From Steroidobacter agaridevorans (GTDB lineage Bacteria > Pseudomonadota > Gammaproteobacteria > Steroidobacterales > Steroidobacteraceae), in the NCBI RefSeq assembly GCF_009932555.1, contig NZ_BLJO01000006.1, forward strand, positions 72,668 to 136,667: a DNA stretch of 64,000 nt, given 5' to 3'. Below the pieces are notes generated by a model that saw only the letters and a list, made by a program, of their open reading frames with translations, searched no databases and was not told the origin of the DNA. The position numbers and the translations under genes were made by a program. The number at the start of each line of letters is the position of its first letter. Position 1 is the stretch's first letter. Of the stretch, positions 3,316 to 26,271 are shown piece by piece.

Positions 3316-3396
3316 GGCCGGAATGATGCCATGCCGGCGCGAAACACGGACCAGGTGTCGTGGCCTCCCCGAGGCCACGACAACGCCGCATGCGTA

Positions 3397-6320: not shown

Positions 6321-6396
6321 AAATCCGATGGGACGGGCAGGCTTCCTTGTCCCTTGCCGATACAGGTGGTGAGGTGGCCCCCCGGCAATCGGATTT
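6321..6396 (+). promoter_or_regulatory. Possible structured leader (three-way junction) before the hybrid kinase
   Basis: Three helices can form with almost no unpaired linker bases. P1 pairs AAATCCGA (6321-6328) with TCGGATTT (6389-6396). P2 pairs GGGAC (6330-6334) with GTCCC (6349-6353). P3 pairs TTGCCG (6354-6359) with CGGCAA (6383-6388). The outer helix closes eight bases before the ATG at 6405. It matches no riboswitch class I recognise. In GC-rich DNA such pairings can arise by chance, so confidence is low. Confidence 0.35.
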
Positions 6397-6404
6397 GCGG
6401 ATCA

Positions 6405-10073: not shown

Positions 10074-11030
10074 TCAGTCCTGGATTTCGGTGGTGATGCG
10101 GTTCCGGCCAGCGGCCTTGCTGGCATAAACGCCGGCGTCACAACGCGCCATCAGGCTGTCGAGCGTTGCACCCTGCGGCACTTTATCCCGCCAGCCGGAC
10201 ACGCCGAAGCTGGCGGACACCGTGAATTCCTGGCCGGGCGCCTTGAACGGCTGTTCGGCAATATGTTTGCGAAGATGCTCGGCCGCATTGGCGGCATTGG
10301 CGACATTGGTCTCCGGCAGCACGATGACGAATTCCTCGCCGCCGTAGCGGGCAATCCAGTCGCTGGAGCGCACGCCGCTCTTGAGCGCGCTACCGAACCA
10401 TTTCAGCACTTCGTCGCCGGTCAGGTGGCCGTAGGTGTCGTTGATCTTCTTGAAGAAGTCGACATCGCACATGATGGCGGCGAGCTGGCGGCCATAGCGG
10501 GCCGCGCGATCGATCTCTCGCGGCAGTTGTTCCATCAGATAACGACGGTTGTATACGCCGGTCAGCGGGTCCGTGATCGACAGCCGCCGGTTTTCTTCAT
10601 TCGCGGCGCGCAGCGAACGTTCCAACGTGACGATGCGGCGGCCGGTATTGAGCCGCGCGATCAGCTCCGGCTCGACCACCGGCTTGATCAGATAATCGTC
10701 GGCGCCGGATTGCAGGCCGGCGACCAGGTGCTCGATGGCATCGCGCGAAGTGAGCAGGATGATGTAAGTGTAGCCCCGCTCCTTGGAGCGCAACGCCCGG
10801 CACAGCGCCACGCCGTCCATCTCCGGCATCTCCCAGTCGGTGATCATCAACGGGAAATCGCCCTGTTCCAGCTTGGCGAGCGCCTCGCGGCCGTTGGCCG
10901 CCATCTCGACCTCATAACCGCCACGCTTGAGCAGCCGCGCCATGATCAGGCGCTGCGTCGGCTCGTCATCGACGAGCAGAATCCGCCAGGCTGGTTGCGC
11001 GGAGGAGGTCTCGGAGGGGGTTGCAGACAT
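10074..11030 (-). CDS. Response regulator with GGDEF output (diguanylate cyclase)
   Basis: This 318-residue protein joins a receiver (VDDEPTQRL, acceptor Asp65 in MITDWEMPEMDG, Lys in DDYLIKPV) to a GGDEF domain. The active-site motif is GGEEF at residues 230-234, a functional variant. The RxxD inhibitory site (RSSD, 221-224) precedes it at the standard spacing, so product feedback is expected. ITDPLTGVYNRRYL and DVDFFKKINDTYGH are the usual substrate and metal motifs. It should make cyclic di-GMP from two GTP when phosphorylated (PleD/WspR-like). ATG 11030 was chosen over a start 19 codons upstream because the extra residues are non-conserved. The upstream region holds a near-consensus CRP site. 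Confidence 0.93.
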   Translation of the reverse strand: MSATPSETSSAQPAWRILLVDDEPTQRLIMARLLKRGGYEVEMAANGREALAKLEQGDFPLMITDWEMPEMDGVALCRALRSKERGYTYIILLTSRDAIEHLVAGLQSGADDYLIKPVVEPELIARLNTGRRIVTLERSLRAANEENRRLSITDPLTGVYNRRYLMEQLPREIDRAARYGRQLAAIMCDVDFFKKINDTYGHLTGDEVLKWFGSALKSGVRSSDWIARYGGEEFVIVLPETNVANAANAAEHLRKHIAEQPFKAPGQEFTVSASFGVSGWRDKVPQGATLDSLMARCDAGVYASKAAGRNRITTEIQD

Positions 11031-11190
11031 CGCCGGGGATCGTACCCGGTGACGGCTTCTGCCGCAAAGCGCAGCTGCGGCACTCAATCACATTTGCGGC
11101 CATCCCCAGCCGGCTACGCCAGGGCCCTTATCCAAAGTTAGATACGATCTGCGACCGCGTTCACCGTTGCCGAATCATCGCGCGGTCGCG

Positions 11191-11219: not shown

Positions 11220-12119
11220 CTAACGCTTACAGATCATCACACCGCCGTTGAGCGTTTTGACCCGCACGCGCCCGTCGCCCTTGCCTTCCGTGAAACGCAG
11301 CTCGTTGCCGGGGCCGTATTCCCGGCTGCGGCTCGGCTTGGGCCCGAAGCAGTTGTCGATATCGCCATTGAACGTTTCAATATCGAACTCGGCGTTGACC
11401 TGGCCGCGCAAGTTGAAATGCAGGTCGCCGTTGATCGCTTCGGCATCGATGCGCACATCGTCGCCCAGCGCGGCGGTCAGATTCAGATCGCCATTGGTCG
11501 TCTTGATCCGGCCGCGATCGAGCCGGTCGAGCGCCACCGTCATGTCGCCGGAGACGGTATTCAAATCCAGCTCCGGGCCGCCCTTGTTGATTTCCAGATC
11601 GCCGCTCACCGTGGTGGCCCGCACCTGGCCTTTGCCCTCGCCATGCGCCCGGATGTCGCCGCTGACGGTTTTGACTTCCAGATCGCCCGGGCCGAAATCG
11701 GTATCGATGCCGCCGCTGACCGACTGCAGGCGCTGCGAGCCGCGCACACTCTTGATCATCTGATCGGCGCTGACCGTGTTGATGATCAGGCCGCTGCCCT
11801 GGGGCACTCGGATTCTCAGATCGCTCGAGCCGGACGAGCTGCCGCCCCGTGGCAGCACGACTTTGATCAGGGTGCGCTGGCCGTCGCTGCGGAAATCCAG
11901 CCGCTCGACGCTGCTGCCGAGCTCGCCGTCGACTTTCACTTCGGCGCGATCCCAGCCGGTGACTTCGACCGTGCCGGCGACATTGACGATCTCCACCTCG
12001 CCGCGCGCATCGGCCGGCAAAGTTTTGGAAATTTCTTCGGCACCGGCGTGCGATGCCGCCGCCGTCAGCATGGCCATGGCCAGGGCAGCTCGCAGCGCTG
12101 CTGACATGGGGGCGTTCAT
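11220..12119 (-). CDS. Secreted DUF4097 beta-solenoid protein
   Basis: The 299-residue product has a Sec signal peptide (AALRAALAMAMLTAAASHAGA) and a repetitive beta-rich body. Short turns recur about every 20 residues: TVSGDI, TVSGDLE, TVSGDMT, TTNGDLN, AINGDLH, TFNGDI, TLNGGVM. This is the DUF4097/DUF4098 putative-adhesin pattern, expected to fold as a right-handed beta-solenoid at the cell surface or in the periplasm. It is the third gene of an ECF sigma/anti-sigma operon; its ATG overlaps the TGA of the gene before it. It may be an envelope sensor or a structural output of that sigma factor. No enzymatic residues stand out. Confidence 0.85.
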   Translation of the reverse strand: MNAPMSAALRAALAMAMLTAAASHAGAEEISKTLPADARGEVEIVNVAGTVEVTGWDRAEVKVDGELGSSVERLDFRSDGQRTLIKVVLPRGGSSSGSSDLRIRVPQGSGLIINTVSADQMIKSVRGSQRLQSVSGGIDTDFGPGDLEVKTVSGDIRAHGEGKGQVRATTVSGDLEINKGGPELDLNTVSGDMTVALDRLDRGRIKTTNGDLNLTAALGDDVRIDAEAINGDLHFNLRGQVNAEFDIETFNGDIDNCFGPKPSRSREYGPGNELRFTEGKGDGRVRVKTLNGGVMICKR

Positions 12120-12724
12120 AGATCGGTCCTCACGGGATGGGAAACAGGCACTTCGCTAACGTCGGCGAGCAGCTGCAGCTCGCGCTGATAGGTGGACATC
12201 AACAGATCCTGCAGCAGCGGATCGGAGGGATTCTCGGCCAGCGTCGCGGATATCTCGTTGGCCGCGTGACGCAGGTCGGCGAGGTTGCGCTCGAGCTTGG
12301 CGCGGGTCGATGGCGGCAGCGTCTTCATGCGCGCCTCGAAGCTCGCATCCAGCTCCGAGCGGGCCTTCATATAATCGGCGCCCAACGCCTCGGTGCCGAA
12401 GCTCACCGGCATTGCATTCAACGGTGCAGTGGCCGTCGGCACGGGCTGTTGAGCGACCTGCACGGCGGCGTCCTTCTCCATGGAGCTGCGCGTAAGTACA
12501 AACGTAGTGAGGGACGTGGCGAGCACAAGAAGCACCCCCGCGGCCATTTGAAACCAGCGCGTCGACGAGAAATGCACGACCGGCGCGCTGTCGGTGACGA
12601 TGGGCGTCTTGCCGATCTCGGCTTGAATGCCCTGCCACAGATCGCGCTCGGGCTGCACGTCCTTCGGCAGGGCCGCCAGCATCTGGCTCAACGGATCGTC
12701 AGGCTTGTTTGCTTGATTACTCAT
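12116..12724 (-). CDS. Membrane-anchored anti-sigma-like protein
   Basis: This 202-residue protein has a cytoplasmic N-terminus of about 55 residues (MSNQANKPDDPLSQMLAALP), one membrane segment near residues 57-78 (WFQMAAGVLLVLATSLTTFV) and a periplasmic helical domain. The topology and the position right after an ECF sigma gene fit an anti-sigma factor. No HxxxCxxC zinc motif is present, so it is not a ZAS-type. The ATG at 12722-12724 lies inside the end of the sigma gene, an eight-base overlap, indicating translational coupling. Longer upstream starts run through the sigma gene and were discarded. Anti-sigma activity is inferred, not shown by a recognised domain. Confidence 0.75.
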   Translation of the reverse strand: MSNQANKPDDPLSQMLAALPKDVQPERDLWQGIQAEIGKTPIVTDSAPVVHFSSTRWFQMAAGVLLVLATSLTTFVLTRSSMEKDAAVQVAQQPVPTATAPLNAMPVSFGTEALGADYMKARSELDASFEARMKTLPPSTRAKLERNLADLRHAANEISATLAENPSDPLLQDLLMSTYQRELQLLADVSEVPVSHPVRTDL

Positions 12725-13316
12725 CGTCCGCCTCCGCCGCCAGGCCCATGCGCTCGCGTAACAACTTTCGTCCGCGATGCAGTTGCGCCTTGCAAGTGCC
12801 GACTGCGATGCCGAGCATGTCGGCGCATTCTTCGTGGCTGTAACCGTACACAGCCTGCAATACGACCACGTGACGCGCACCCTCGGGCAAGGTGGTGAGC
12901 GCGCGCTCCAGATCCATCACCTGGCCCGCGTCGAGCTCTCGGGCGCCGTCGCCCGGCTCCGCGATGGCGTTCTCGATCGCATCTTCGTTGGATTCGGAGC
13001 GCGTGCCGTGATTCCGGCCATGGCTCAGCACCTCGTTCACCGCGATCCGGTGCAGCCAGGTGCCGAACGAGCTGCGGCCCTCGAAGGCCTGCAGGCTCCG
13101 CCACGCTCTGATGAATGTCTGTTGCACGCAATCCTCCGCCACGTCCCGCCGCCGCGTCATCCGCAGGCACAGGCCCATTACTTTGCCGCTGTGGGTGCGA
13201 TACAGGCGCTCGAACGCGCGCGTATCGCCACCCCGGGCAGCCGTAACCAGGCTCGCGTCGGAGAGCAGGGGGTCCGCTACTGGGACCGATTCGTTGGCGC
13301 CAGCGCCGTATTGCAA
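12717..13316 (-). CDS. ECF-family RNA polymerase sigma factor
   Basis: The 199-residue product has sigma region 2 (AFERLYRTHSGKVMGLCLRM, DVAEDCVQQTFIRAWRSLQA, SSFGTWLHRIAVNEVL) and region 4 (LPEGARHVVVLQAVYGYSHE, ADMLGIAVGTCKAQLHRGRK). These are the core and promoter-binding parts of an ECF sigma. The start is TTG at 13314-13316, supported by GGAGAGG about five bases upstream. Downstream lie a membrane anti-sigma-like protein and a DUF4097 protein, a common operon type answering envelope stress. An inverted repeat at 13389-13421 may be part of its promoter control. Confidence 0.93.
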   Translation of the reverse strand: MQYGAGANESVPVADPLLSDASLVTAARGGDTRAFERLYRTHSGKVMGLCLRMTRRRDVAEDCVQQTFIRAWRSLQAFEGRSSFGTWLHRIAVNEVLSHGRNHGTRSESNEDAIENAIAEPGDGARELDAGQVMDLERALTTLPEGARHVVVLQAVYGYSHEECADMLGIAVGTCKAQLHRGRKLLRERMGLAAEADDE

Positions 13317-13486: not shown

Positions 13487-14683
13487 CTATTTTTGCTTGC
13501 TGTTCCATTCGCGCACGGCGATTTCCAGCGCCGTGCCGGCCATGGGACGGCCGATGAAATAGCCTTGGGCGCGGTCGCAGCCGACCGAGTCGAGAAAGTC
13601 CAGGACCTCCTGGGATTCGACGCCCTCGGCGCAGGCGGTCAAGCGCAGTTTGTGAGCGAGCAGGACCATGGTCTCGACCATCGTCCTCGCATCTTCGTGG
13701 GCAAACACATCGCGCACGAACGAGGTGTCGATTTTCAGCTCGCTGAAGGGCATCAGGTACAGCTGCTTCAGCGACGAGTAGCCGGTGCCGAAGTCGTCGA
13801 TGGACAGGCCGAAGTTCTTCACGCGCATGCGGGTCAGCACGTCCATGGTCGTGCCCGGGTCGAACATGGCGGCGCTTTCGGTTACTTCGAAAATAATGCG
13901 TCGCGCATCGGCGCCGACCTGCGTCGCCATGCGGGCGACCTGATCGGGGAACGCGAGGTCGTTCAACAGCTGGGGCGAAAGATTGATCGCCACCGATAAC
14001 TGCAGGCCAACGGCATCCCAGGCGCGGCATTGAGACAGCGCCGTTTCCAGCACCTGTTCGGTGAGCCGACGGATCAGACCGTTCTTCTCGGCCAGCGGGA
14101 TGAAACGAACCGGCGACACAAAGCCCAGCGATGGATGATTCCAACGCGCCAGCGCTTCCACGCCTTCGACGATCCAGCGATTCGGCGCGAGACGCGTCGC
14201 CTTGGGCTGGTAGTGAACGATGATCTCGCGCTTATCGAGCGCTGCGGTCAGCGCCGCGGCGCTGATCGGCGTATCGCTGCTCAAACATTGGCGCAGCGTC
14301 GCTTCGAGATCCGCGAGCAGGATCGGCTTTTGAAGCGCGCCCAACATCTGCAGGCCATGGGCCTTGCCGATCTGTTGAGCCGTCTGCAGCACTCGCTGAT
14401 CCATGCCGCTGGCGACCAGGATCTGTGCCTTGCTGCCGCGCTCGCCCAGGTAACGCAACAGCTCGATGCCATCGGCGCCGGGCATCTGCAGATCGAGCAC
14501 TACCACCGAGGGCTGGAATTCCTGCACGGCGCGTCGGAACGCTTCCGGATCGGTGACGCCCTTGGATTCGAAGCCAAGACCGGCCGCGGCCTCCGAGATG
14601 AACTCGCAGAGGTCGGGCTGATCGTCGATGACCAGCAGTTTGTTGGTTTGATCAGGCGACACGAGCCTCCCTATCGAGGACAT
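13487..14683 (-). CDS. Response regulator with EAL output (cyclic di-GMP phosphodiesterase), copy A
   Basis: The 398-residue product joins a receiver (VIDDQPDL, acceptor Asp64 in VVLDLQMPGADG, Lys119) to an EAL domain. The expected metal and catalytic motifs are all present: EAL at 176-178 (VEGVEALARW), Asn in INLSP, Glu in FEVTES, the Asp pair in SIDDFGTGYSS, Lys in ELKID, Glu in CAEGVES and Gln in AQGYFIG. It should hydrolyse cyclic di-GMP to pGpG under receiver control. The gene starts inside the last 32 bases of the hybrid kinase gene before it, so kinase and regulator are probably coupled. It is a close paralogue of the protein at 21986-23203, sharing for example ASGMDQRVL. Confidence 0.94.
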   Translation of the reverse strand: MSSIGRLVSPDQTNKLLVIDDQPDLCEFISEAAAGLGFESKGVTDPEAFRRAVQEFQPSVVVLDLQMPGADGIELLRYLGERGSKAQILVASGMDQRVLQTAQQIGKAHGLQMLGALQKPILLADLEATLRQCLSSDTPISAAALTAALDKREIIVHYQPKATRLAPNRWIVEGVEALARWNHPSLGFVSPVRFIPLAEKNGLIRRLTEQVLETALSQCRAWDAVGLQLSVAINLSPQLLNDLAFPDQVARMATQVGADARRIIFEVTESAAMFDPGTTMDVLTRMRVKNFGLSIDDFGTGYSSLKQLYLMPFSELKIDTSFVRDVFAHEDARTMVETMVLLAHKLRLTACAEGVESQEVLDFLDSVGCDRAQGYFIGRPMAGTALEIAVREWNSKQK

Positions 14684-17051
14684 GGCGAATCCGCATAGCC
14701 AGATCTTCGTTGCGATAGGGTTTATGGATTACATCCGACGACGTGAGCCCCGCAGTCCCCGCGAGCACGGCGTTGTCGGCATAGCCGGTAGTAAAGAGCA
14801 CATCGATGTCCGGGCGCAATTCCCGGGCGCGCTTGGCCAGCGCCGGCCCGAGCATGCCACCGGGCATCATCACATCGGTGAACAACAGATCGATGCGCTC
14901 CGGTCCGGACAGAATGCGCACGGCCGCCGCGCCATTGGCAGCAGCGAGCGCGCGATAACCAAGCTGAGTCAGCGCAGTCACGACGGTGTCGCGCAGGTCG
15001 GCGTCGTCCTCGACCACCAGAATGGTCTCGGTGCCGCCCGGCGCAGCCCGCGTGACGATGGTGTCTTCGCGAGCCGATTGTTCCTCTTGCGAGCGCGGCA
15101 GGAAGATGGTCACCGTCGTGCCGACACCGACCGTGCTTTCGATCGTTGCGATGCCGCCCGCCTGCTCAGCGAAGCTGTGAACCATCGCGAGGCCCAGGCC
15201 GCTGCCCTTGCCCGATTCCTTGGTCGTGAAGAACGGCTCGAACCCGCGCTTGAGCACTTCCGCTTCCATGCCGACGCCGTTGTCGTTGACGCTGATGGCC
15301 ACGAAGTCGCCCGGCTCGATGGAGGGATACTCGGCGCAGAACTTGGCGTCGAGCGTGACGTTCTGGGTGCGCACCGTGAGGCGGCCGCCCTGAGGCATGG
15401 CGTCGCGCGCATTGATGGCCAGATTCAAGATCGCGTTCTCGAACTGGCCCGGATCGGCGCTGGTGTGCCACAGATCATGGGCCTGGATCATACGCACTTC
15501 GATGGATTCGCCAATGGTGCGCTGGACCAGCTCGCTCAGGCCCGACAGCTGACGATTCAGATCGAGCACCGCCGGCTCGAGGATCTGCCGACGCGCAAAC
15601 GCGAGCAAACGACGCGTCAGATCGGCGCCACGCGCAGCAGCGCGCATGGCCGTGTGAACTTTTCTCGCCAGGGTCGGCGTCTCTGCGACGCTGCGATCGA
15701 GCAGCTGCAAGTTGCCGATGACCACGCCGAGCAGATTGTTGAAGTCGTGCGCGATGCCGCCGGTGAGCTGGCCGATCGCTTCCATCTTCTGCGCCTGCAT
15801 GAGACGCCCTTCGAGGCGCTTCTGCTCGGTGAGGTCGTAGACGATGGAGAAGAAGCCCAGCACTTCGCCGTTCGGGCCCATCTGCGGCACGAAATGATTC
15901 TGCCATTCGCGATGCCGGCCGTTGCGCACGCCACTCTGCGTGACGCGCACGAACTCTCCGGCCATGACCTTCCTGATCAGCGGCTCGACTTCGGCGAACT
16001 GCTCCTCGCTGATGCTGTCGCGTAACGGCCGGCCCAGCACCGCATCGGCGGGCTGTGCAACCCATTCTTCCAGCGCCTTGTTCACATACGTCACGATCAT
16101 GCTCGAGTTGACGTAGGTCACCGGCGTCGGCACGGCATTCAACGTCAGCTCGAAGAAATCGCGCGTCTCGCGCAACTTGCGCTCGGCGCTGACCAGGTCG
16201 GTGACGTCCTGGATCGTGCCATGCAGACGCACGGTGTTGCCGCCGCGCCGCTCGGCTTTGACGATGCTTCTGACCCAGAGCTGGCGGCCGCGCGCACTGG
16301 TCATTCGTAACAGCAGATCGGACGGCAGGCCCGCGTCGATGGCCATGCGCTCGGCGCTCTGCATTTTCAAGCGGTCTTCGGGATGGAAGAACGCACGATG
16401 CGCCTCGACATCGATCAGATGCCCGACCGGCAGATCGTGGATGGCGTACAGCGCCTCGGTCCAATGCAATTGTTTGCTGGTGACGTCGTATTCCCAGCCG
16501 CCGATCTTGGCGGTGGCCTGCATGTCCTTGAGCAGGTTGTCGAGCCGCACGCGCTCGCCGATGTCACGGAACACCAGCACGGTGCCGACTGACGCGCCTT
16601 CTTCGGTCACCGGCAGAATTTTGTATTCGACCGGACGGAACGTGCCGTTCTTCCGGCGCAACAACGCGCCGACGCCGCGCATGATGTCGGTCGTGTAACG
16701 CACGCGACGGACAGGATCCGTGCGCGAATCGCCGTCCTCTTGAGTATTGATGAGCACGCGATAGTCGAGGCCGGCCAGCTCCTCGGGCTCGTAGCCGAGC
16801 ATCTTGGCCGCCGCCGGATTCGCGTAACGGACATGACCGACGTTATCGAGCTCGAGCACGCCCTCGCCCGAGCCCTCGACGATGGATTGGTTGCGTCGAT
16901 TGGCGGCCGTGAGTTGGGCGTGACGTCGGCGCAGTCGGCTGCGGAGCTTGCCCAGCAACGCAAGAGAAATAATCGCCGGCACCAGGCCGAGGGCGACGCC
17001 CACGGCCAGGCTGACGAGATTCCCGCCGAGCAGTCCTTGCAATGAGTTCAT
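14652..17051 (-). CDS. PAS hybrid histidine kinase with C-terminal receiver, copy A
   Basis: This 799-residue protein has one N-terminal membrane segment (about 12-35) and three PAS regions (about 55-165, 180-285, 300-415). The HisKA box has His435 ([18 protein letters not shown]), and the HATPase domain has [14 protein letters not shown] and [12 protein letters not shown]. The C-terminal receiver has acceptor Asp726 ([11 protein letters not shown]). The IAHDFNNLL kinase type with its own receiver is typical of PAS-rich soluble-ligand or redox sensors. The REC-EAL gene follows with a 32-base overlap, so that phosphodiesterase is the likely partner. The stop of an upstream NarL regulator gene is 26 bases before its start. 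Confidence 0.92.
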
Positions 17052-17077
17052 TTATTGCGCGGTCGCGCGCGAGGCTC

Positions 17078-17800
17078 TCAAGGCTTCGCGCCCGGCTCCC
17101 TCCCGGCATACCAGTTGACCGCGTACTGCATCAGTTGGGCCGAAGTGCGCAACGAGAGCTTGCGTTTGATGCGTTGACGATGCGATTCCACGGTCTTCAC
17201 GCTGAGATTCAAAGCTTCTGCGGTCTGTCGCGTCGACAGGCCCTTGCCGATCATGTGCAGCACCTGCAGCTCACGATTGGTCAGGCTGTCGACCGGATTC
17301 GAGGAGATGTACGCCCCACCCGAGGCGAACTTCTCGATCATGCTGTTGCCGACGGCTTCGCTCACATAGATGCCGCCATCGAGCACGCGCCGGAGCGCGA
17401 TCAGGAACTGGTCCGAGGCCGCCTGTTTCATGATGTAACCGTTCGCGCCCGCCGAGAGCATGCGTTCCGCATAGATCGCCTCGTCGTGCATCGACAACAC
17501 GAGCAGAGGAAGCGCCGGGTAGTGAGCGCGCGCGTCCTTCACCAATTCCAGGCCATCGCCCTGCTTGAGCGAGACGTCCACGATCACGGCATCCGGCTCC
17601 TGCTCGCGAATCATCGACTTTGCTTCGCGGGCCGTCTCGGCTTCACCGCACACTTCCAGATCCGCCTCCGCTTCGATCAAACGCCGCAGTCCCTGACGCA
17701 CGATGGGATGGTCGTCGACGATCAGCACGCGGCGCTTCTGGTCCTTGGACATACCGGGGGGCTTATGTGCCGGTTTGAACAGAGAAGGCCCAACGCTCAT
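17078..17800 (-). CDS. NarL/FixJ-type response regulator, copy A
   Basis: The 240-residue regulator has a receiver (RVLIVDDHPIVRQGLRRLIE, acceptor in AVIVDVSLKQGDG, Lys in GYIMKQA) and a LuxR-type helix-turn-helix (LTNRELQVLHMIGKGLSTRQ, LNLSVKTVESHRQRIKRKL). ATG 17800 was chosen because AGGAG sits eight bases upstream; a GTG nine bases earlier would place AGGAG too close. The kinase gene at 17897-19378 lies directly upstream on the same strand and is the probable partner. About 17 residues precede the receiver, more than usual. Targets are unknown. Confidence 0.92.
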   Translation of the reverse strand: MSVGPSLFKPAHKPPGMSKDQKRRVLIVDDHPIVRQGLRRLIEAEADLEVCGEAETAREAKSMIREQEPDAVIVDVSLKQGDGLELVKDARAHYPALPLLVLSMHDEAIYAERMLSAGANGYIMKQAASDQFLIALRRVLDGGIYVSEAVGNSMIEKFASGGAYISSNPVDSLTNRELQVLHMIGKGLSTRQTAEALNLSVKTVESHRQRIKRKLSLRTSAQLMQYAVNWYAGREPGAKP

Positions 17801-17896
17801 TGCACTCACTCCTGCTACTTATACTGGTCGAAAGCGGCCGAGGCCCTTTCGACAACGTCCGGCAAAAGGCGCGACTTTTGCCGGACTACAACCTGT

Positions 17897-19378
17897 TCAG
17901 CTGGCGCGCTTACGGGAACGACGCGCCTTGGCGGCATCGGCTGCGGGCTCGAGGGGACATTCGCAAACGATGCGTGTGCCGGGCCGGCTCTGCTCGGAGG
18001 AACTATCCGGCCCGCCCCGCTCGAAACGAACTTCGCCGCCCAGGATCCGTGCGCGGTACCGCATGATTTTCAGGCCCATGCCTGCTGCGTCCACCGCATC
18101 GGCCGGCATGCCAATGCCGTCGTCAGTTACCGTCAGCCGAACCTTAGCGCGGGCCCCATGCAAATGCAGTCGTATAGACCGCGCCTGGCCGTGGCGGACC
18201 GCGTTCCGAACCGCTTCCTGCGCAATCCGATAGAGATGATTGGCCAATTCAGTGCTCAGCGGGCGAATGGTCTTCACACGATGAGTACAAGTGACGTCGA
18301 CCCCATAAAGCTCCTGCGCATGCATCGCCAGGCCTTCGAGCGCGTCGGACAGGCCGCCGCGTTCCAGATTGACCGGCGACAGACCACGCGCCAGCGCCCG
18401 CGTGCTCTCGATGGAGCTGTTCACCAGCCGGGTAATGCCTTCGATTTCCGGCAGAATCGTCGGGTATTCCGTGGTCAGACGGCCGGCCAGCCCACGCAGC
18501 ATCAGTGCGATGCCCGTCAACTCCTGACCGAGGCCGTCGTGTAGATCATTACCAATGCGATATTGCTCGCGACTCACTGCCTGCAGGATCGCGCGCTCCA
18601 GCTGCTTGCGCTCGCTGACATCCTGAAGCACCAGCAGACTGTGATTGCGCCCCGCGACTTCGAAACGGGACAGCACGCCCAGCGCCGCGAAGTGCGTGTC
18701 ATCGGCGCGACGTCCGTCGAACTCGACCTGCATGGAGCGGCCCTGTTCCACTGACAGCGGTTGCCAACGCTCCGGCTGCTCGAACGGCCAGCCGGCGAGC
18801 TGCGCCATATTGCGGCCGATGAGCTCGCCGCGACGATAGCTGAACAACATGTCGAAGGCCGGATTGGTGATCTCGATGACACCCTGCTCGTTGATCACCG
18901 CGACACCTTCGAGCATCGACTCGATCATGCGCGCCTGAGTCGCGATGGCGCGCTCGGCCCGCACTTGCTCGGTCGTCTCAGTGGTTACAACCGCGAGCGC
19001 GACGATTTTCTGCTCGTCGCGGATCGGGCTCACACGCACGTCGAAATGCCGTGACTGTCCATCGTTGCCTTCGATCTCGGCGACGTAGCCATCGACCTGA
19101 CCGTTGGCGAGCACTCGATGCAGCGTCGACAAGGCCCGCGCATGCAGGCTCTGTGGGAATAAATCGGTAACGAGCGCGCCTTCGAGCTGCTTGGCCGAGC
19201 GCTCGCCGATGCCGCGATTGGCCACGATCACACGCAAGCCGCGATCGACCACGAACACGAATTCGCCGACCGCGCCGACCAGCTGCCGCATCGTGTCCGT
19301 TTGCAGCGTCGTACGCAGCCCGGTCTCGACCGGCGAGGGGCCGGCGAGCGCAAGATCGTATGTTTTCGCAGTATTCAA
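17897..19378 (-). CDS. PAS-containing NarX-type (HisKA_3) sensor kinase, copy A
   Basis: Two PAS regions (MRQLVGAVGEFVFVVDRGLR and MIESMLEGVAVINEQGVIEI) precede a HisKA_3 box with His280 (RIGNDLHDGLGQELTGIALM). The HATPase domain has HLYRIAQEAVRNAVRHGQA, DDGIGMPAD and GMGLKIMRYRARILGG. There is no membrane segment, so it is cytoplasmic. The open frame continues to 19573, but the extra residues look non-coding. TTG at 19376-19378 follows a weak AGGGA element; ATG 19294 is the other option. The NarL-type regulator gene follows after 96 bases. The product resembles the kinase at 20521-21984. The start is the least certain part. Confidence 0.88.
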   Translation of the reverse strand: MNTAKTYDLALAGPSPVETGLRTTLQTDTMRQLVGAVGEFVFVVDRGLRVIVANRGIGERSAKQLEGALVTDLFPQSLHARALSTLHRVLANGQVDGYVAEIEGNDGQSRHFDVRVSPIRDEQKIVALAVVTTETTEQVRAERAIATQARMIESMLEGVAVINEQGVIEITNPAFDMLFSYRRGELIGRNMAQLAGWPFEQPERWQPLSVEQGRSMQVEFDGRRADDTHFAALGVLSRFEVAGRNHSLLVLQDVSERKQLERAILQAVSREQYRIGNDLHDGLGQELTGIALMLRGLAGRLTTEYPTILPEIEGITRLVNSSIESTRALARGLSPVNLERGGLSDALEGLAMHAQELYGVDVTCTHRVKTIRPLSTELANHLYRIAQEAVRNAVRHGQARSIRLHLHGARAKVRLTVTDDGIGMPADAVDAAGMGLKIMRYRARILGGEVRFERGGPDSSSEQSRPGTRIVCECPLEPAADAAKARRSRKRAS

Positions 19379-19472
19379 GCCGTGCTGTTCCCTGCGGGGC
19401 GACAATGGCAGAACGCATCGCAGGCAGAACTGAGCCCGCGAACATGGGCAGCATGGTGTTGTAGCGGCGTTG

Positions 19473-19496
19473 TAGGGGATATCAGCCACTCCCCTA
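19473..19496. promoter_or_regulatory. Inverted TAGGGG/CCCCTA pair upstream of kinase
   Basis: TAGGGG (19473-19478) and CCCCTA (19491-19496) form an inverted pair with a 12-base spacer, about 95-118 bases upstream of the TTG start at 19378. The same half-sites occur as a tight hairpin upstream of the other PAS kinase (25993-26011). NarL/LuxR-type regulators bind such inverted heptamers, so autoregulation is possible. This is pattern recognition only. Confidence 0.3.
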
Positions 19497-19617
19497 ATGT
19501 CGCACGCGGTGTGAGCGTCTTTACCCGGACTGTGGCGTGTTTCTCGCTTGGTCGATAAAACCAAGCTGGGCAATTACTTATACGTCGCGTTGCGCGTATT
19601 GCTCACTTAAGGGAACG

Positions 19618-19647
19618 CAGTGAGTGTGATGCGTGTCACACTCACTG
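19618..19647. promoter_or_regulatory. CRP/Clp-type site, perfect core within a 12-bp palindrome
   Basis: The core TGTGATGCGTGTCACA (19625-19640) is a perfect TGTGA-N6-TCACA match. The symmetry extends to 12 bases on each side (19618-19629 with 19636-19647). It lies 23 bases past the stop of the NarL-type gene at 19670-20359 and about 250 bases upstream of the kinase start at 19378. It could also act as a terminator hairpin for the regulator gene, but no T-run follows on that strand. I favour a CRP-family binding site. Confidence 0.65.
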
Positions 19648-19669
19648 GACGGCCGTTAGTAGTTTTTAC

Positions 19670-20359
19670 TCAGTGGGTTCCACTAGGGGCCGCGTCGGCG
19701 GCGCCGCCTCGATCCGACACCCATTGCGTGGCGTAACGGATCAGCTCGCTGGTGGAGCGCAGATTCAATTTCTCGCGCATGTGACGACGATGCGCGTCGA
19801 CCGTCTTCATGGACAGGTCGAGCCGTTGCGAAATTTCACGGGTACTGATGCCTTCACCGATCAGGCGAAACACTTCCAGCTCACGATCGGTGAGCGCCGA
19901 GACCGGATCTTCATCGGCCGCGGGTGAGCGACCTCGCGCGACCTGGCTGAGCAATCGCTCGCCCATGGCAGAACTGACATGCCGCTGGCCACGGGCGACC
20001 TTGCGCAAAGCGCCGAGGAAATCCGTGCCTGCGACGTTCTTCATTACATAACCACTGACGCCGAGGCGGAGCAGGCGCTCGGCGTAGAGCGCTTCGTCCT
20101 GCATCGACAGCACCAGCACACGGACATTGGGATGATCACTGCGAATCCAGCGCACCAGTTCGATGCCGTCGTCCGGGCCCAGCGCCAGATCGACTACGGC
20201 GACGTCGGGTTCTTCGCCGGCTATGGCGGTTTGCGCGGCCTGCACCGACGCAGCCTCTCCTTGCAGGACGAATTCGCTCTGCCCAGCGAGCAATTGCTTC
20301 AAACCTTCGCGGACAAATGGATGGTCATCAACGATCAGGATCCTTGTTGGATCGGCCAT
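19670..20359 (-). CDS. NarL/FixJ-type response regulator, copy B
   Basis: The 229-residue regulator has a receiver (RILIVDDHPFVREGLKQLLA, acceptor in VAVVDLALGPDDG, Lys in GYVMKNVAG) and a LuxR-type helix-turn-helix (LTDRELEVFRLIGEGISTRE, LDLSMKTVDAHRRHMREKL). ATG 20359 is preferred because GAGGA lies six bases upstream; the ATG two codons earlier would abut it. It is divergent from the REC-PAS kinase at 20521, its probable partner, and paralogous to the regulator at 17078-17800. The 161-base divergent region between them has a GGGCAC/GTGCCC inverted pair (20426-20431, 20460-20465). Confidence 0.92.
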   Translation of the reverse strand: MADPTRILIVDDHPFVREGLKQLLAGQSEFVLQGEAASVQAAQTAIAGEEPDVAVVDLALGPDDGIELVRWIRSDHPNVRVLVLSMQDEALYAERLLRLGVSGYVMKNVAGTDFLGALRKVARGQRHVSSAMGERLLSQVARGRSPAADEDPVSALTDRELEVFRLIGEGISTREISQRLDLSMKTVDAHRRHMREKLNLRSTSELIRYATQWVSDRGGAADAAPSGTH

Positions 20360-20520
20360 GGTCATTCCTCAAAAGGGCGGCCGTCGTGGCGCCCCTCGTT
20401 ACCAGCTCTACCTTTAATCTTCAGTGGGCACAAGGAAGGAGCAATCCCCATTTTCCACAGTGCCCTCAGGGTGATACGTTCGCTCCCGGCGCGCCCGTGT
20501 ACAAATTGGGCACCACCGAT

Positions 20521-21984
20521 ATGAAAAAGGACTCAACAGAACCGCTGCATTTCGTCCTGCTGGAGGACGATCCCAACGATGCCGAGCTGATTCAATTGCA
20601 GCTAGCGAGGAACGATCTCGACATTACGTGGCGTCACGTGATGTCGGAAAGCGATTTTCGCGCAGCGCTCGCCGGCACGCCACCCGATCTGGTGCTGGCC
20701 GACTACACGCTGCCTGGCTTCGACGGTCTCGCCGCCCTGCGCATCGTGCTGGAGCGATCGGCCGACATCCCATTTATTTTCGTGTCCGGTTCGCTCGGCG
20801 AAGAGCGCGCGATCGAAGCACTCAAGAGTGGCGCCACTGACTACGTGTTGAAGGATCGACTACAGCGCCTGCCGATGGTGGTGAATCGCGCGCTGTCCGA
20901 AACACGCGTGCGTCGCGAGCGGCGCTTGGCGCAGACCGCGCTCGAAGAACAACGCGTCCTGCTCAGCACGCTCATCGACAGCCTGCCCGAGATCATTTAT
21001 GCGGTGGACACCGAGAACCGCGTAACCGTCGTCAATCGCGCACTGCTCGAAACGTTGAACAAGAAACGTGAAGAGGTCATCGGCCGGCTCCTATCCGAGT
21101 TGTGGACCGAGGAAAATGTCGTCGACATGGAAGGACAAGCCGCAACGACCATGCGCACCGGCCGGCCGCTCACCGATCAGGAGCGCGCGTGGATCGGGCT
21201 CGATGGCTCGGTCCGCTGGTTCACGATCACGCACGTCCCGTTGCGGGATCATGGCACCGTGTCCGGCCTCGTCTGCACTGTGCAGGAAGTGACTCAACGC
21301 AAAGAGCTCGAGCAGGAGATCCTGGAAATCTCCAATCGCGAGCAGCGCCGCCTCGGCAGCGATCTGCACGACGGCCTCGGCCAGGAGCTCACCGGCCTGT
21401 CGCTGTTGATGAAGGGTCTCGAGATGCAGATGGCGCGCGAGTCGCCGCAGTACTCGGCGCAAGTCACGAAGATCACCGACTTGCTGGCGCGAGCGATTCA
21501 AAGCACTCGCTCATTGGCGCGCGGCCTGGCGCCGGTCAATCTCGAACGTGGCGGCCTGCCCGAAGCGCTCAAGCATCTCGTGGCTCGCTGCACGGACATG
21601 TACAGCATGGAAACCACCTTTACGATGGGCGGTCAGAAGCTGCCCGATCTCGAAGAGGGCGCCGCGACTCATCTGTATCGAATCGCGCAAGAAGCATCGA
21701 CGAATGCGGCCCGCTACGCGCGCGCCACGTCGATCAACATCGATCTGCGCTCGACCGGTCGCAAGCTGCAGCTCTCCATTTCCGACAACGGCATCGGCCT
21801 GAGCGCGGGCCTCGCGCAAGGCCGGCCCGGCATGGGCTTGAAGATCATGGAATACCGCGCGCGCATGCTCGGCGGCTCGATCAGTTTCGACGAGCCCGGC
21901 GCGGGCACGAGGATTACGCTGACGGCGCCTCTGCACTTGCTCCGACAGAGCAAGGACAAGAAGCGCCTCGCAGCGAGCGGTTGA
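20521..21984 (+). CDS. REC-PAS-HisKA_3 sensor kinase, copy B
   Basis: The 487-residue cytoplasmic protein starts with a receiver (FVLLEDDPNDAELIQLQLA, acceptor in LVLADYTLPGFDG, Ser in the FVSGS position, Lys in YVLKDRL). A PAS region follows (STLIDSLPEIIYAVDTENRV). The NarX-type kinase part has His283 (RLGSDLHDGLGQELTGLSLL), the N box HLYRIAQEASTNAARYA, SDNGIGLSAG and GMGLKIMEYRARMLGG. The N-terminal receiver lets another kinase modulate it. ATG 20521 was chosen because translation upstream of it is not protein-like. It converges on the REC-EAL gene with one base between stop codons. Confidence 0.92.
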   Translation: MKKDSTEPLHFVLLEDDPNDAELIQLQLARNDLDITWRHVMSESDFRAALAGTPPDLVLADYTLPGFDGLAALRIVLERSADIPFIFVSGSLGEERAIEALKSGATDYVLKDRLQRLPMVVNRALSETRVRRERRLAQTALEEQRVLLSTLIDSLPEIIYAVDTENRVTVVNRALLETLNKKREEVIGRLLSELWTEENVVDMEGQAATTMRTGRPLTDQERAWIGLDGSVRWFTITHVPLRDHGTVSGLVCTVQEVTQRKELEQEILEISNREQRRLGSDLHDGLGQELTGLSLLMKGLEMQMARESPQYSAQVTKITDLLARAIQSTRSLARGLAPVNLERGGLPEALKHLVARCTDMYSMETTFTMGGQKLPDLEEGAATHLYRIAQEASTNAARYARATSINIDLRSTGRKLQLSISDNGIGLSAGLAQGRPGMGLKIMEYRARMLGGSISFDEPGAGTRITLTAPLHLLRQSKDKKRLAASG

Positions 21985-21985
21985 C

Positions 21986-23203
21986 CTATTTGCGAACCAC
22001 CGGGACGAGCGTGTGATCCGCGCCGTTCCACACATCGATGAACGATTCGATCTCCGACGCCGGCATCGATGGTGCAATGAAATCGCCCTGAAGCGCATCG
22101 CAGCCACACTGCTCCAGGAACTCGAACGACGGCGAGTTCTCGATACCTTCGGCGCATGCCGTGAGCGACAGGTTATGCGCCAGCTCGACGATGGCGCGGA
22201 CGACCGTCGCAGCGGCCTTGCTCTGCGCGATCTCGGAGATCAACAGACCGTCGATCTTCACTTCGCTGAACGGCATCTTGTAGAGCAGCGTCAGCGACGA
22301 CGTGCCGATGCCGAAATCGTCGAGCGACAGACCGACACCCTTCACACGCAAGCGCGTGAAGATGTCCATCACCAGTTCCGGATCGTCGACCGAGGCCGCT
22401 TCCGTCACTTCCAACGTGAGCTGTTCGGGGCGCACCTCGAACTCGCGCAACACGCGCGACAACCGCTCTGGGAACTCCAGATCCTGCACCAGCCTCGGGG
22501 ACAAGTTCACCGCCGCGCCAAGATCCAGCCCGCGCGTGCCCCAGTGACCGATCTGACGAATCGCATCGGTGAGCACGAAGTCGGTGAGATCGACGATCAG
22601 ACCGGACTGCTCCGCCAGCGGCAGGAACTCGCCCGGATATAACAATCCCAGGCGCGGATGACGCCAACGCACCAGCGCCTCGGCGCTGCGCACGTGCCAA
22701 TCGTTCGCCGAACGCACGACCTTCGGCTGGTAGTGCACGATGAGCTCGTGCTCGTCGATCGCCGTCCGCAGCTCTTCGACCGAAATGCGCGAGCTGGGCT
22801 CGAGATGTTTGGCAAGCAACGTTTCGATGTCTTCGAGCATCGCCGGCTTCTGCAGCGTGCCGAGCATCTTCAATCCCAGCGATTCGCCGAGCTGCCGCGC
22901 GCTCGCAAGTACTCGCTGGTCCATGCCGCTCGCCAGCAGGATTCCGGATGTCACATTCTGGCGCGCCAGGTAGCGCAGCGCCTCGATGCCATCCATGCCC
23001 GGCATTTGCAGATCGAGCAGGATCAAAGCCGGCTGCCGCTGAGACAATTGCTCGCGGAAGCTGGCTGCGCTGTCGGCCGTGATGACGGTGCAGCCGACGC
23101 CTTTGCCGATCTGCTCGATCAGCTCCAGGAAGTCCGCTTCGTCATCGACCGCCAGTAACAAATTCCTCTCACGCCGGAACACGCTTGTTCTCCTCTTTAC
23201 CAT
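21986..23203 (-). CDS. Response regulator with EAL output (cyclic di-GMP phosphodiesterase), copy B
   Basis: This 405-residue paralogue of the protein at 13487-14683 has a receiver (AVDDEADFLELIEQ, acceptor Asp64 in ILLDLQMPGMDG, Lys119) and an EAL domain with EAL at 175-177 (RSAEALVRW). The motifs AVNLSP, LEVTEA, SLDDFGIGTSS, EVKID, CAEGIEN and LQGDFIA follow. Key catalytic positions are kept, though DDFGIGTSS replaces DDFGTGYSS of copy A, so activity may differ. Its start lies 35 bases inside the kinase gene before it, the same overlapped arrangement as copy A. Confidence 0.93.
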   Translation of the reverse strand: MVKRRTSVFRRERNLLLAVDDEADFLELIEQIGKGVGCTVITADSAASFREQLSQRQPALILLDLQMPGMDGIEALRYLARQNVTSGILLASGMDQRVLASARQLGESLGLKMLGTLQKPAMLEDIETLLAKHLEPSSRISVEELRTAIDEHELIVHYQPKVVRSANDWHVRSAEALVRWRHPRLGLLYPGEFLPLAEQSGLIVDLTDFVLTDAIRQIGHWGTRGLDLGAAVNLSPRLVQDLEFPERLSRVLREFEVRPEQLTLEVTEAASVDDPELVMDIFTRLRVKGVGLSLDDFGIGTSSLTLLYKMPFSEVKIDGLLISEIAQSKAAATVVRAIVELAHNLSLTACAEGIENSPSFEFLEQCGCDALQGDFIAPSMPASEIESFIDVWNGADHTLVPVVRK

Positions 23204-25865
23204 CCAGCAGCGCGCGAACCCGTCGCGCCAGCTCTTCTAATTGATACGGCTTGGGCAGCAGCTCGACCGAGCCGTCGAGCAGACTCCGATGCATCAGGCT
23301 GCTGTCGCTGAAGCCGGAGGTGAGCAGCACCTTCAACTCGGCGCGCCGCTCGGTGAGTTTCTCCACCAGCTGCGGGCCGAGCAGGCCGCCGGGCAACATG
23401 ATGTCCGTGAACACCAGCGCGATATCCGGATGTCGCATGAATCGCTCCAGAGCCTGATGCCCGTTGGCAGCCTCGTGCACTCGATAGCCGAGACTGGTAA
23501 GAATTTCAACCGTAGTCCCCCGCACTTCGGCATTGTCCTCCACTACGAGGATTGTTTCATGGCCGCGCGGCAGATCGGCTTGTTCGGTGCCCTCGGGCCG
23601 GGTCTCATCGGCGCCCGCCTGCGACCGTGGAAAATACAACCGCACGGTCGTGCCCTGTTGCGGAACGCTGATGATGTGCACATGGCCGCCGGACTGCTTC
23701 ACGAAGCCATAGACCATCGACAGACCGAGGCCGCTGCCCTTCCCCACTTCCTTGGTCGTGAAGAACGGCTCGAAGACCCGTTTCAACGTTTCGGCGGACA
23801 TGCCGGCTCCCGTGTCGGCGACTTCGACCAGCGCGTACTCTCCGGGCGTCAGACCATCTTCACGGGCTTGTCGGTCCGCGCCGATAATCACATTTCGAGT
23901 CGCAATGGTGATTGCGCCGCCGCTCGGCATCGCATCGCGCGCATTGATCACCAGATTGAGCACCGCATTCTCCAGCTGTCCCGGATCGGCTCGCGTAAAC
24001 CACGTATCCGTGCCCAGCTGACTGTGAATCTCGATATCGCCTGTCAAAGAGCGACGCAGCAATTCGTACATCCCGCCAATCAGCGCATTCAGATCGACGA
24101 TCTTCGGCTCGAGCACCTGCTGGCGGGCGAAGGCCAGCAATCGCTTGATCAACTCGCCGCCACGCATTGCGGCGTTCAGCGCAGTCTCTGCCTGTCGTAA
24201 CAAACGCGGCGTCTGGTGCAACGAGCGCGTCAGCAACTGCATGTTGCCGACGATGACCGAGAGCAAATTGTTGAAGTCATGCGCGATGCCGCCGGTGAGA
24301 CGCCCCACCGCTTCCATCTTCTGACTCTGCCGCAGCTCGGCTTCGAGCAAACGTTTCTCGGTGATGTCACGAGCGGCGACGAAACAACCTAGCAACTCGC
24401 CGTCGTCGAAGTGAGGAATGAACGCGGCCTCCAGATCGACCTGCTTGCCGTTCGCATCTCGATAACGCCCCTGGCCTTCGAGCGTCTTGCCTTGCAGAGC
24501 TTCGCGCACGTAGGGACCGATCGCGCCATAACGCCGATCGCCGATGACGTCTTTGATGACGCGTCCCCGAGAGTCGGCCAGTGGGGTCGCGAAGAATTGT
24601 TGAAAGATTCGATTGGCGTAGAGAATGCGCTCGTCGCGATCCGCGTATGCAACGAACAGCGGCAGCGAGTCCAACACGGTGCCGTAGAAGTCCTGGCTGC
24701 GACTCAGCGCCTTTTCCGCATCGATCTGTGCACTGATGTCACTGAGCGAGCCCGCGAGTCGCGTCGGCCGGCCGGAGGCATCACGCTCGGCTTCGCCTCG
24801 CAAACGACACCAGACAATGTTTCCTTTACGAGTGACGACTCGGCAGCGTGTGTCGAGCCGGCTTTGATTCTCCAGATGCGCGCGGATCTTGCTCAAGACG
24901 GCGACACGGTCTTCCGCGTGCAGCACGTTCTGGAATGCCTGGAACGTATTGGCGAAGTTCACATCGGCACAACCGATGATGTCGCGGAAGCGGCTTGCGT
25001 ACCAGACGTGGCCCGTCAGCAGATCCCATTCATACAAGCCGTCCAACGTGCCACGGATCGCGCGCTCCCAGCGCTGTTCGACTTCATGCGCCGTGCGCTG
25101 ATCTTGTTTGCTACGCGAGATGTCCTGCAGGACACCGATGACTCGCAGCGCCTTGCCCGCCGCATCTCGGCGCACGACCTTGGCGTGCGCGAGGAACCAT
25201 TTTTGCGTGCCGTCGTGGGTGGTCAGTCGATATTCGGATTGGAAGTACGGCGCGCCGCCATGGAAGTGACGCTCGAACTTTTCGAGCACGCTGTGATCGT
25301 CGGCCGGCAGCATCAAGCGATCGCTCAGTTCCTCGCGTTTCAACAACTCGCTCGGATCGAGGCCGAGGGAAATGCGCCACTGATCGTTGTAGGAAACCTG
25401 GTCCTGCTCGACGTTCCAGTCCCACATCGACAGCTCGCTCGCTTCCATCGCCAATTCGAGCCGCGCTTCGGTGGCACGCAGCGATTCGCGGGCGCGCTTG
25501 TAGTCGGTGATGTCTTCGAGAGTGATGACGACTTGTTTGGAATCTGCGGCGCGGGTGCTCACGCGAGTCCACAACATCCGATCGCCTTGAGACCGGATCA
25601 GCCATTCGGCGGTGAAGTCCTCGCCGGCGACGATCGCGTCACGCAGATGCTGATAAATGGATGTGTCGCTGGATCGATCGGCAAGCAATTGCAGGCCGCC
25701 GTGCAGGATCTCGTCGCGCCCGTACCCGGTCAGCCGGCAGAACGCGGCGTTGACCTGGCTCAGTCCGACCTGCCCGCCATTCCGGGTCGCAATAGCGATC
25801 CCGTGAACGACGGCATCGAGCGCGACGGACGCGTCGATGACTGAGGTGCGGTCGGCGACAGACAT
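23169..25865 (-). CDS. PAS hybrid histidine kinase with C-terminal receiver, copy B
   Basis: This 898-residue protein has about four PAS regions (about 15-125, 130-250, 260-385, 390-510), each ending in a PAC-like stretch such as VIGVLQDISRSKQD or LAGSLSDISAQIDA. The HisKA box holds His529 ([18 protein letters not shown]), and the HATPase has [14 protein letters not shown] and GSGLGLSMVYGF. The C-terminal receiver has Asp821 (LVFTDIMLPGG). Unlike copy A there is no membrane segment, so it senses cytoplasmic signals. The partner REC-EAL gene overlaps its end by 35 bases. The upstream 468-base gap holds a TTAGGGG hairpin and long inverted repeats. Confidence 0.92.
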   Translation of the reverse strand: MSVADRTSVIDASVALDAVVHGIAIATRNGGQVGLSQVNAAFCRLTGYGRDEILHGGLQLLADRSSDTSIYQHLRDAIVAGEDFTAEWLIRSQGDRMLWTRVSTRAADSKQVVITLEDITDYKRARESLRATEARLELAMEASELSMWDWNVEQDQVSYNDQWRISLGLDPSELLKREELSDRLMLPADDHSVLEKFERHFHGGAPYFQSEYRLTTHDGTQKWFLAHAKVVRRDAAGKALRVIGVLQDISRSKQDQRTAHEVEQRWERAIRGTLDGLYEWDLLTGHVWYASRFRDIIGCADVNFANTFQAFQNVLHAEDRVAVLSKIRAHLENQSRLDTRCRVVTRKGNIVWCRLRGEAERDASGRPTRLAGSLSDISAQIDAEKALSRSQDFYGTVLDSLPLFVAYADRDERILYANRIFQQFFATPLADSRGRVIKDVIGDRRYGAIGPYVREALQGKTLEGQGRYRDANGKQVDLEAAFIPHFDDGELLGCFVAARDITEKRLLEAELRQSQKMEAVGRLTGGIAHDFNNLLSVIVGNMQLLTRSLHQTPRLLRQAETALNAAMRGGELIKRLLAFARQQVLEPKIVDLNALIGGMYELLRRSLTGDIEIHSQLGTDTWFTRADPGQLENAVLNLVINARDAMPSGGAITIATRNVIIGADRQAREDGLTPGEYALVEVADTGAGMSAETLKRVFEPFFTTKEVGKGSGLGLSMVYGFVKQSGGHVHIISVPQQGTTVRLYFPRSQAGADETRPEGTEQADLPRGHETILVVEDNAEVRGTTVEILTSLGYRVHEAANGHQALERFMRHPDIALVFTDIMLPGGLLGPQLVEKLTERRAELKVLLTSGFSDSSLMHRSLLDGSVELLPKPYQLEELARRVRALLDGKEENKRVPA

Positions 25866-26011: not shown

Positions 26012-26077
26012 GCTGAAGGGCGGCGCGCGCTCGGCGCAGTGGCCCCCAGATTAGGAGGCCCAGTGGCTCGCGAAGGC

Positions 26078-26217
26078 CAGGGCGGGGTAGGTCCTCCGGG
26101 CACCGTGCTCCCCGTCACTCGCGCTATCGCGCGGATTCCTTGGGTCCCGTCCCTGGGCGCACTGCTCCGGCGAGATCCCTCTCGTCCGAAGCTGCCCGGA
26201 GGACCTACCCCGCCCTG
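26078..26217. repeat. 140-base element bounded by perfect 24-bp inverted repeats
   Basis: Bases 26078-26101 are the exact reverse complement of 26194-26217. The arms carry GGGGTAGGTCCTCCGGG and its complement, and the 92-base interior includes CGCGC-TATC-GCGCG. Outside the arms the complementarity continues imperfectly for about seven more bases. No transposase or target-site duplication was seen. It could be a MITE-like or REP-type dispersed repeat, or a structured transcript. Confidence 0.6.
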
Positions 26218-26271
26218 TCCTCCGCCGACGCGGCGGACTCACTCTGCCCGGAAGAGGGGATCGGAATGTTC

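Follow-up and report, generated by a model that had tools for sequence, protein, structure and literature searches.

The 64,000-nucleotide stretch of the Steroidobacter agaridevorans genome analyzed here (contig NZ_BLJO01000006.1; hereafter the window) contains a block of eight signal transduction genes that fall into two sets of four, A and B, each with a REC-EAL response regulator (EAL), a hybrid kinase (HHK), a NarL-type regulator (NarL) and a HisKA_3 kinase (NarX). Judged by the phylogeny of the four protein families, the A and B copies separated before the genus arose, and are old lineages, not a fresh copy of a block. Most likely the eight genes form the far end, counted from mutY, of a signalling island that is old in the Steroidobacteraceae and the order to which they belong and has been inherited vertically; the island would encode a branched two-component network acting on cyclic di-guanosine monophosphate (c-di-GMP) and transcription.

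Gene content and paralogy of the A and B copies

Open reading frames (ORFs) and Pfam domains confirm all eight genes at the positions given in the original prediction, which was made from the letters of this DNA. EAL_A (13487..14683, minus strand) and EAL_B (21986..23203, minus strand) combine REC and EAL domains. The hybrid kinases have the architecture PAS-HisKA-HATPase-REC without HPt. HHK_A (14652..17051, minus strand) carries three PAS domains and a membrane segment, the latter at approximately residues 15-33 with a Kyte-Doolittle hydropathy of 2.55, whereas HHK_B (23169..25865, minus strand) has four PAS domains and lacks an evident membrane segment, its highest hydropathy (1.63) falling inside a PAS region; this difference had been foreseen. 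Both NarL_A (17078..17800, minus strand) and NarL_B (19670..20359, minus strand; start chosen by Shine-Dalgarno spacing) are REC-GerE proteins. NarX_A (17897..19378, minus strand) is a kinase with two PAS domains followed by HisKA_3 and HATPase, and NarX_B (20521..21984, plus strand) has the order REC-PAS-HisKA_3-HATPase; the highest hydropathy values in these two proteins are 1.47 and 1.36. Thus the two predicted kinase/NarL pairs are present, but they are not alike in layout, since NarX_B is encoded on the plus strand and has a receiver domain at its N terminus: the two genes of unit A share a strand, those of unit B are divergent.

The predicted overlap of the HHK and EAL genes is likewise real, but its length of 32 and 35 bases depends on upstream ATG codons. 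In-frame GTG codons at 14662 (EAL_A) and 23182 (EAL_B), with frames read by eye, are each preceded by a Shine-Dalgarno-like GGGAGG or GAGGAG inside the 3' end of the kinase gene. In seven genus relatives the codon at this position, again by eye, is GTG for EAL_B and GTG or TTG for EAL_A. These GTG codons are probably the preferred starts, with overlaps of 11 and 14 bases.

Alignment of the copies, which the original prediction had proposed, demonstrates similarity far above chance and identifies them as true paralogues. In blastp comparisons the REC-EAL proteins share 46% identity (E 9e-122), the hybrid kinases 43% over 583 residues (E 2e-153), the NarL-type regulators 43% (E 2e-66) and the HisKA_3 kinases 36% (E 2e-63); both sequence motifs quoted as shared, including ASGMDQRVL of the EAL proteins, occur in both copies. 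Within the host genome (G000, 8.0 Mb) the A and B proteins are mutual best paralogues for EAL, HisKA_3 kinase and NarL. HHK_A and HHK_B form the best-scoring pair in the genome (489 bits vs 356), while other hybrid-kinase paralogues reach 49% identity, over a shorter kinase core. DNA repeats of approximately 160 bases at a spacing of 8532 sit in the kinase genes and mirror their coding similarity.

Phylogeny and conservation of the locus

First trees were built from 77 EAL, 68 NarL, 45 NarX and 65 HHK rows, followed by focused trees and approximately unbiased (AU) tests. The groups compared in the AU tests were taken from the hypothesis of the original prediction and the rows were selected once the first trees had been seen; rows of genome G028 are included for EAL, HHK and NarX, and rows of G029 for EAL and NarX. 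Sisterhood of A and B at the level of this lineage is rejected for NarL (p-AU 0.00065, at a cost of 161 log-likelihood units), for EAL (p-AU 0.0018, 31 units) and, with modest p-values, for HHK (p-AU 0.020, 19 units) and NarX (p-AU 0.0295, 15 units).

The copies keep different company in the trees. EAL_A clusters with families f3, f4 and f6 (support 92/90), and EAL_B with other genera of its own family (96/91). HHK_A groups with f4 (91/89) and HHK_B with g23 and g24 (97/94). The NarL_A clade takes in other genera together with f3 and f6 (96/91), and that of NarL_B stays within the family (91/99). NarX_A joins kinases that adjoin NarL_A in other genera (95/91); NarX_B belongs to a less well supported set (85/93 for the genus, G028 and G029). 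The claim that one block was duplicated and rearranged in this lineage is therefore not supported. Placement of the copies with distant families, the outcome named in advance as contradicting that claim, is seen for the A copies of EAL and HHK, which group with other families.

HHK_A, HHK_B and the same-locus hybrid kinases of other genera and families constitute a single clade (19 rows, 100/98), with six paralogues from the same genome outside it. All A-type and all B-type NarL proteins are united by a weakly supported branch of the best tree (66/53), and it is thus possible that the kinase/NarL unit was duplicated at the family level, before the family spread. Incomplete and single-type loci in relatives (G028, G009, G038, G133 and G023) indicate that the parts of the block do not share one history.

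A search for the block in related genomes, also proposed with the original prediction, found all eight genes, in unchanged order and on a single contig, in nine of 14 genomes of the genus. Contig ends break the locus in four others (G004, G005, G006 and G008), and G009 holds seven of the eight genes, NarX_A being absent from the gap read. EAL proteins of both types are present in all 14 genomes, as is an orthologue of a REC-GGDEF response regulator (69-100% identity) at most 3 kb from EAL_A. The nearest named loci are those of Peristeroidobacter agariperforans KA5-B (EAL_B 100%), P. soli, Steroidobacter gossypii and Povalibacter uvarum. Across the nine genus loci NarL_A is the most conserved part (97-100% identity in its helix-turn-helix (HTH) domain), and the sensor regions of the hybrid kinases are the least conserved (49-98% for HHK_A, 53-94% for HHK_B). 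In agreement with the earlier suggestion that the sensors of the copies have changed, their Pfam PAS sets differ as well.

Outside the genus we sampled 18 genomes with a NarL_A orthologue (61-82% identity) and tallied its neighbours with small hidden Markov models, built from two to seven sequences each, in stretches of 5-19 kb. REC-EAL alone lies near NarL_A in four of them (G018, G025, G028, G036), REC-GGDEF alone in another four (G015, G023, G027, G194), and both in three (G029, G184, G211). G032 has REC-GGDEF and an EAL ORF approximately 6 kb off, and in G038 the REC-EAL genes are on a contig other than that of NarL_A. The stretches of G015, G018, G038, G095 and G160 are short or cut by contig ends, so that absence in them is weak evidence. 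For 13 of the 18, the stretch with NarL_A also contains mutY.

Individual relatives display various partial loci. G028 has EAL_B and lacks both HHK_B and NarX_A; in G029 too EAL_B has no adjoining HHK_B. G038 and G133 contain two REC-EAL genes in tandem, preceded in G038 by one HHK gene. G023 has both HisKA_3/NarL units and no REC-EAL in the stretch read. Of the proteins encoded by the tandem REC-EAL genes at L078:2611-5055 (plus strand) and L162:3841-6258 (minus strand), in two other families, one groups with EAL_A and the other is near EAL_B or unresolved. In G029 (L075:12098-12562, minus strand), HHK_A is cut down to a receiver domain that adjoins EAL_A and keeps the Asp/Thr/Lys phosphoacceptor set; this domain may either function as a stand-alone receiver or be a remnant.

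Predicted activities, wiring and alternative explanations

The EAL domain scores 215 bits against Pfam in each of EAL_A and EAL_B. Residues E176, N234, E266, D296, D297, K317, E353, E356 and Q373, which we take to be the metal and substrate ligands, are invariant in all 34 sequences compared (17 of type A and 17 of type B, the latter including two rows, from G038 and G133, that are weakly placed with B and unresolved in the focused tree), and hence both proteins are predicted to be c-di-GMP phosphodiesterases. The AlphaFold model of EAL_A (mean predicted local distance difference test 88.6, predicted template modelling (TM) score 0.66) has RocR (3sy8) as its top full-length Foldseek match; the TM score of approximately 0.59 and root-mean-square deviation of 13-17 imply a domain orientation different from that of RocR. 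Loop 6 reads DFGTGYSS in EAL_A of the window and DFGIGTSS in its EAL_B (near residue 300). Among B-type sequences, Thr of this loop is changed to Ile or Val in 4/17 and Tyr is replaced in 13/17 (T, L, M, Y, H or F seen at this position), whereas the A-type loop is better kept (Tyr in 12, Phe in four and Ala in one of 17). The B-type variation may reflect a different regulation. The REC-GGDEF protein (10074..11087, minus strand) has a GGEEF motif with RxxD five residues upstream and scores 174 bits with TIGR00254 (cut-off 37.4), and is predicted to be a diguanylate cyclase.

In the network that we favour, HHK_A and HHK_B would use their PAS sets to sense different inputs, in the case of HHK_A at the membrane, and would phosphorylate the REC-EAL proteins, leading to c-di-GMP degradation. 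A third hybrid kinase, HHK_C, would drive the opposing REC-GGDEF cyclase, and the NarX_A/NarL_A and NarX_B/NarL_B units would control gene expression, with NarX_B itself gated via its receiver. HPt is present in HHK_C and absent from HHK_A and HHK_B, so the latter two would either transfer the phosphate directly or rely on HHK_C for an HPt, in the way that PvrS depends on RcsC. The gene pairs suggest signalling from HHK to REC-EAL and from HisKA_3 kinase to NarL, and relatives with two REC-EAL genes beside one or no HHK gene suggest that kinases are shared between REC-EAL proteins; partial exchange between the arms is therefore expected.

Comparison with known systems points in the same direction. 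The Roc system of Pseudomonas aeruginosa (RocS1/RocA1/RocR and the paralogous RocS2/RocA2) likewise has hybrid-type kinases, a NarL-type (GerE) regulator and a REC-EAL phosphodiesterase, as well as paralogous copies of its parts (PMC12051241, PMC3083521). RocS1 feeds both RocA1 and RocR (PMC3083521), and RocS1 and RocS2 share regulators (PMC3083521, PMC12051241). Our locus, too, has a REC-EAL protein laid out like RocR, with a kinase and a NarL-type regulator close to it. Unlike RocS1 and RocS2, which have HPt and a periplasmic SBP_bac_3 region (PMC12051241), HHK_A and HHK_B contain PAS sensors only, and neither is a RocS-type kinase with HPt by Pfam; in addition, separate HisKA_3 kinases adjoin the NarL genes and a REC-GGDEF arm is added.

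The PvrSR/RcsCB system of P. aeruginosa PA14 also has two sensors next to two regulators, a REC-EAL and an HTH protein; its hybrid kinase PvrS, which lacks HPt, depends on the HPt of the other kinase and works through RcsC as a phosphorelay (PMC3842833). It differs from the present locus, in which HisKA_3 kinases accompany the NarL partners, the parts occur twice and there is an additional cyclase arm. Both EAL proteins score highest with the PvrR model (NCBIfam NF052596); their 242.7 and 232 bits fall far short of its cut-off of 580. The HisKA_3 kinases and REC-GerE regulators resemble NarX and NarL in domain composition. The NarX sensor is built of membrane and HAMP regions, and no sensor of this type was found by Pfam in NarX_A or NarX_B, which have PAS or REC-PAS instead; the NarL proteins score 122.6 and 132.9 bits, below the NarL cut-off of 250 (PRK10651). 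Overall, the modules do occur twice, are old and make functional sense as a plausible system. They represent a known, Roc/Pvr-like kind of network whose arrangement, with a cyclase arm of opposite sign, is new.

Several observations weigh against this model. Key deep branches of the trees are weak (92/90 and 81/83 on the A side of EAL), and in five of the 18 non-genus genomes (G026, G095, G101, G160, G214) neither c-di-GMP enzyme occurs within the stretch, so the island is not constant beyond the genus. Positions of kinase and receiver specificity, presumably equivalent to those of EnvZ and OmpR, by analogy with which they were mapped, give a mixed picture. The hybrid kinases are nearly identical between A and B at positions +7, +8, +11 and +12 (p 0.58), and the excess divergence in helix 1 of the REC-EAL receivers over their other positions is not significant (p 0.096; 0.089 for the genus rows), so cognate HHK/EAL pairing is not demonstrated; helix 1 of the NarL receivers does diverge more than the rest (p 0.026), which counts against free exchange between the NarL units. 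This mapping is partly matched by PMC2991266.

These positions bear on the possibility, to which we attach a clearly lower but not negligible probability, that the A and B arms are insulated, each kinase serving only its own REC-EAL or NarL protein; this concerns wiring and is compatible with our evolutionary reading. Besides the NarL result, it is favoured by the HHK/EAL gene overlap and by the congruence of HHK and EAL distances (Mantel r 0.91 for 22 pairs, against 0.39 as the best of 5000 permutations and 0.82 once A and B partners are swapped in five genomes), a correlation to which the shared species tree contributes. Residue 26 in helix 1 of the REC-EAL receivers also differs, being Cys in 15/17 A-type and Leu in 14/17 B-type sequences. 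Insulation of the HHK/EAL pairs via specificity residues nevertheless gains no support from the kinase and REC-EAL values given above, and EAL_B without adjoining HHK_B (G028, G029) and the single HHK gene before two REC-EAL genes in G038 speak against insulated arms.

A reading that we consider unlikely assigns the NarL regulators to the hybrid kinases as main targets, as with RocS1 and RocA1, and leaves the REC-EAL proteins as feedback dampers. The genes NarX_A, NarL_A, HHK_A and EAL_A are co-directional with short gaps, loci L154 and L156 encode NarL regulators without an adjoining HisKA_3 kinase, and the Roc sensor feeds both a NarL-type and an EAL regulator (PMC3083521); against this, the HHK and EAL genes overlap, and the pair occurs without NarL_A in f4 and f15 stretches. 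Equally speculative is an extension of our own model, in which the mutY locus would be an evolvable switchboard with NarL_A as the fixed output and an enzyme arm that, depending on the genus, is kept, lost or swapped between phosphodiesterase and cyclase, flipping the sign of the c-di-GMP response, while the HPt of HHK_C would link the arms where present.

It is also improbable that a mutY hotspot gathered unrelated kinase/regulator sets through horizontal transfer, with a resemblance that reflects no more than membership of the same broad families. Patchiness outside the genus would fit such gathering (REC-EAL in 27 of 196 genomes of the order at E up to 1e-85), as would plasmid-borne REC-EAL response regulators (279 records, E up to 1e-40, each below 60% identity), but the hybrid kinases of the locus form one clade that excludes the six paralogues of their own genome, and the mutY, ECF and DUF4097 neighbours recur across families. 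Recent copying of a four-gene block within this lineage, followed by rearrangement, is suggested by the doubling of both gene types within 12 kb and by mutual best paralogy in three of the four families, yet it is very improbable given that lineage-level sisterhood of the copies fails the AU test in each of the four families and that other genera and families have single-type and incomplete loci.

If the island is what we propose, the bacteria of a whole order, most of them environmental, share a conserved and apparently undescribed c-di-GMP island whose enzyme arms oppose each other and in which gains and losses have occurred naturally. It would offer a testable case of paralogous kinase/regulator pairs that are kept apart or share partners, and would raise the question of whether a regulator retains its targets when the neighbouring enzyme changes sign. 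A literature search for Steroidobacter and c-di-GMP gave no description of the island, the match being a root-microbiome survey, and the matches listed in a broader search make no mention of Steroidobacter.

Neighbouring genes and non-coding elements

The eight genes occupy one end of an island that extends for approximately 24 kb from mutY to HHK_B. The anchor gene mutY (2173..3378, minus strand; Pfam, NCBIfam 457 bits vs a cut-off of 427) is followed by a flanking gene for an AsmA family protein (4055..6226, minus strand; Pfam) and by HHK_C (6354..10073, plus strand), a PAS-HisKA-HATPase-REC-REC-HPt kinase whose gene stands tail to tail with that of the REC-GGDEF protein. Next are a DUF4097 protein (11220..12119, minus strand; Pfam), an ORF without a Pfam match that is a putative anti-sigma factor by position (12116..12880, minus strand), and a sigma factor of the extracytoplasmic function (ECF) type (12717..13316, minus strand; Pfam and synteny) adjoining EAL_A. 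An ECF-type sigma factor adjoins EAL in several other families too, and the gene order mutY, DUF4097, ECF, EAL, NarL, NarX, HHK in family f10 implies that EAL has long been next to the ECF operon. Beyond mutY, a REC-REC-HPt piece of a further hybrid kinase (3-1262, plus strand) is truncated by the edge of the window.

Promoter and terminator scans did no better than shuffled sequences (3 vs 2.7 and 11 vs 11.5), Rfam has no match in positions 1-30000 of the window, and no tRNA was found in the window. Genus comparison identified a conserved 20-base element in the intergenic region from which NarL_B and NarX_B diverge (20442..20461, minus strand). In the 8-Mb genome it occurs at a single site when up to three mismatches are allowed, and it was not matched to a particular regulator. 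At most three mismatches separate it from its counterparts in 12 of the 13 genus genomes read, and it is absent from G009, the genome that also lacks NarX_A. Finally, two arms of 33 bases, 94% complementary and 90 bases apart, form an inverted repeat between HHK_B and the next gene (26070-26225); its core has one further occurrence among 275 loci, its own copy in L227.

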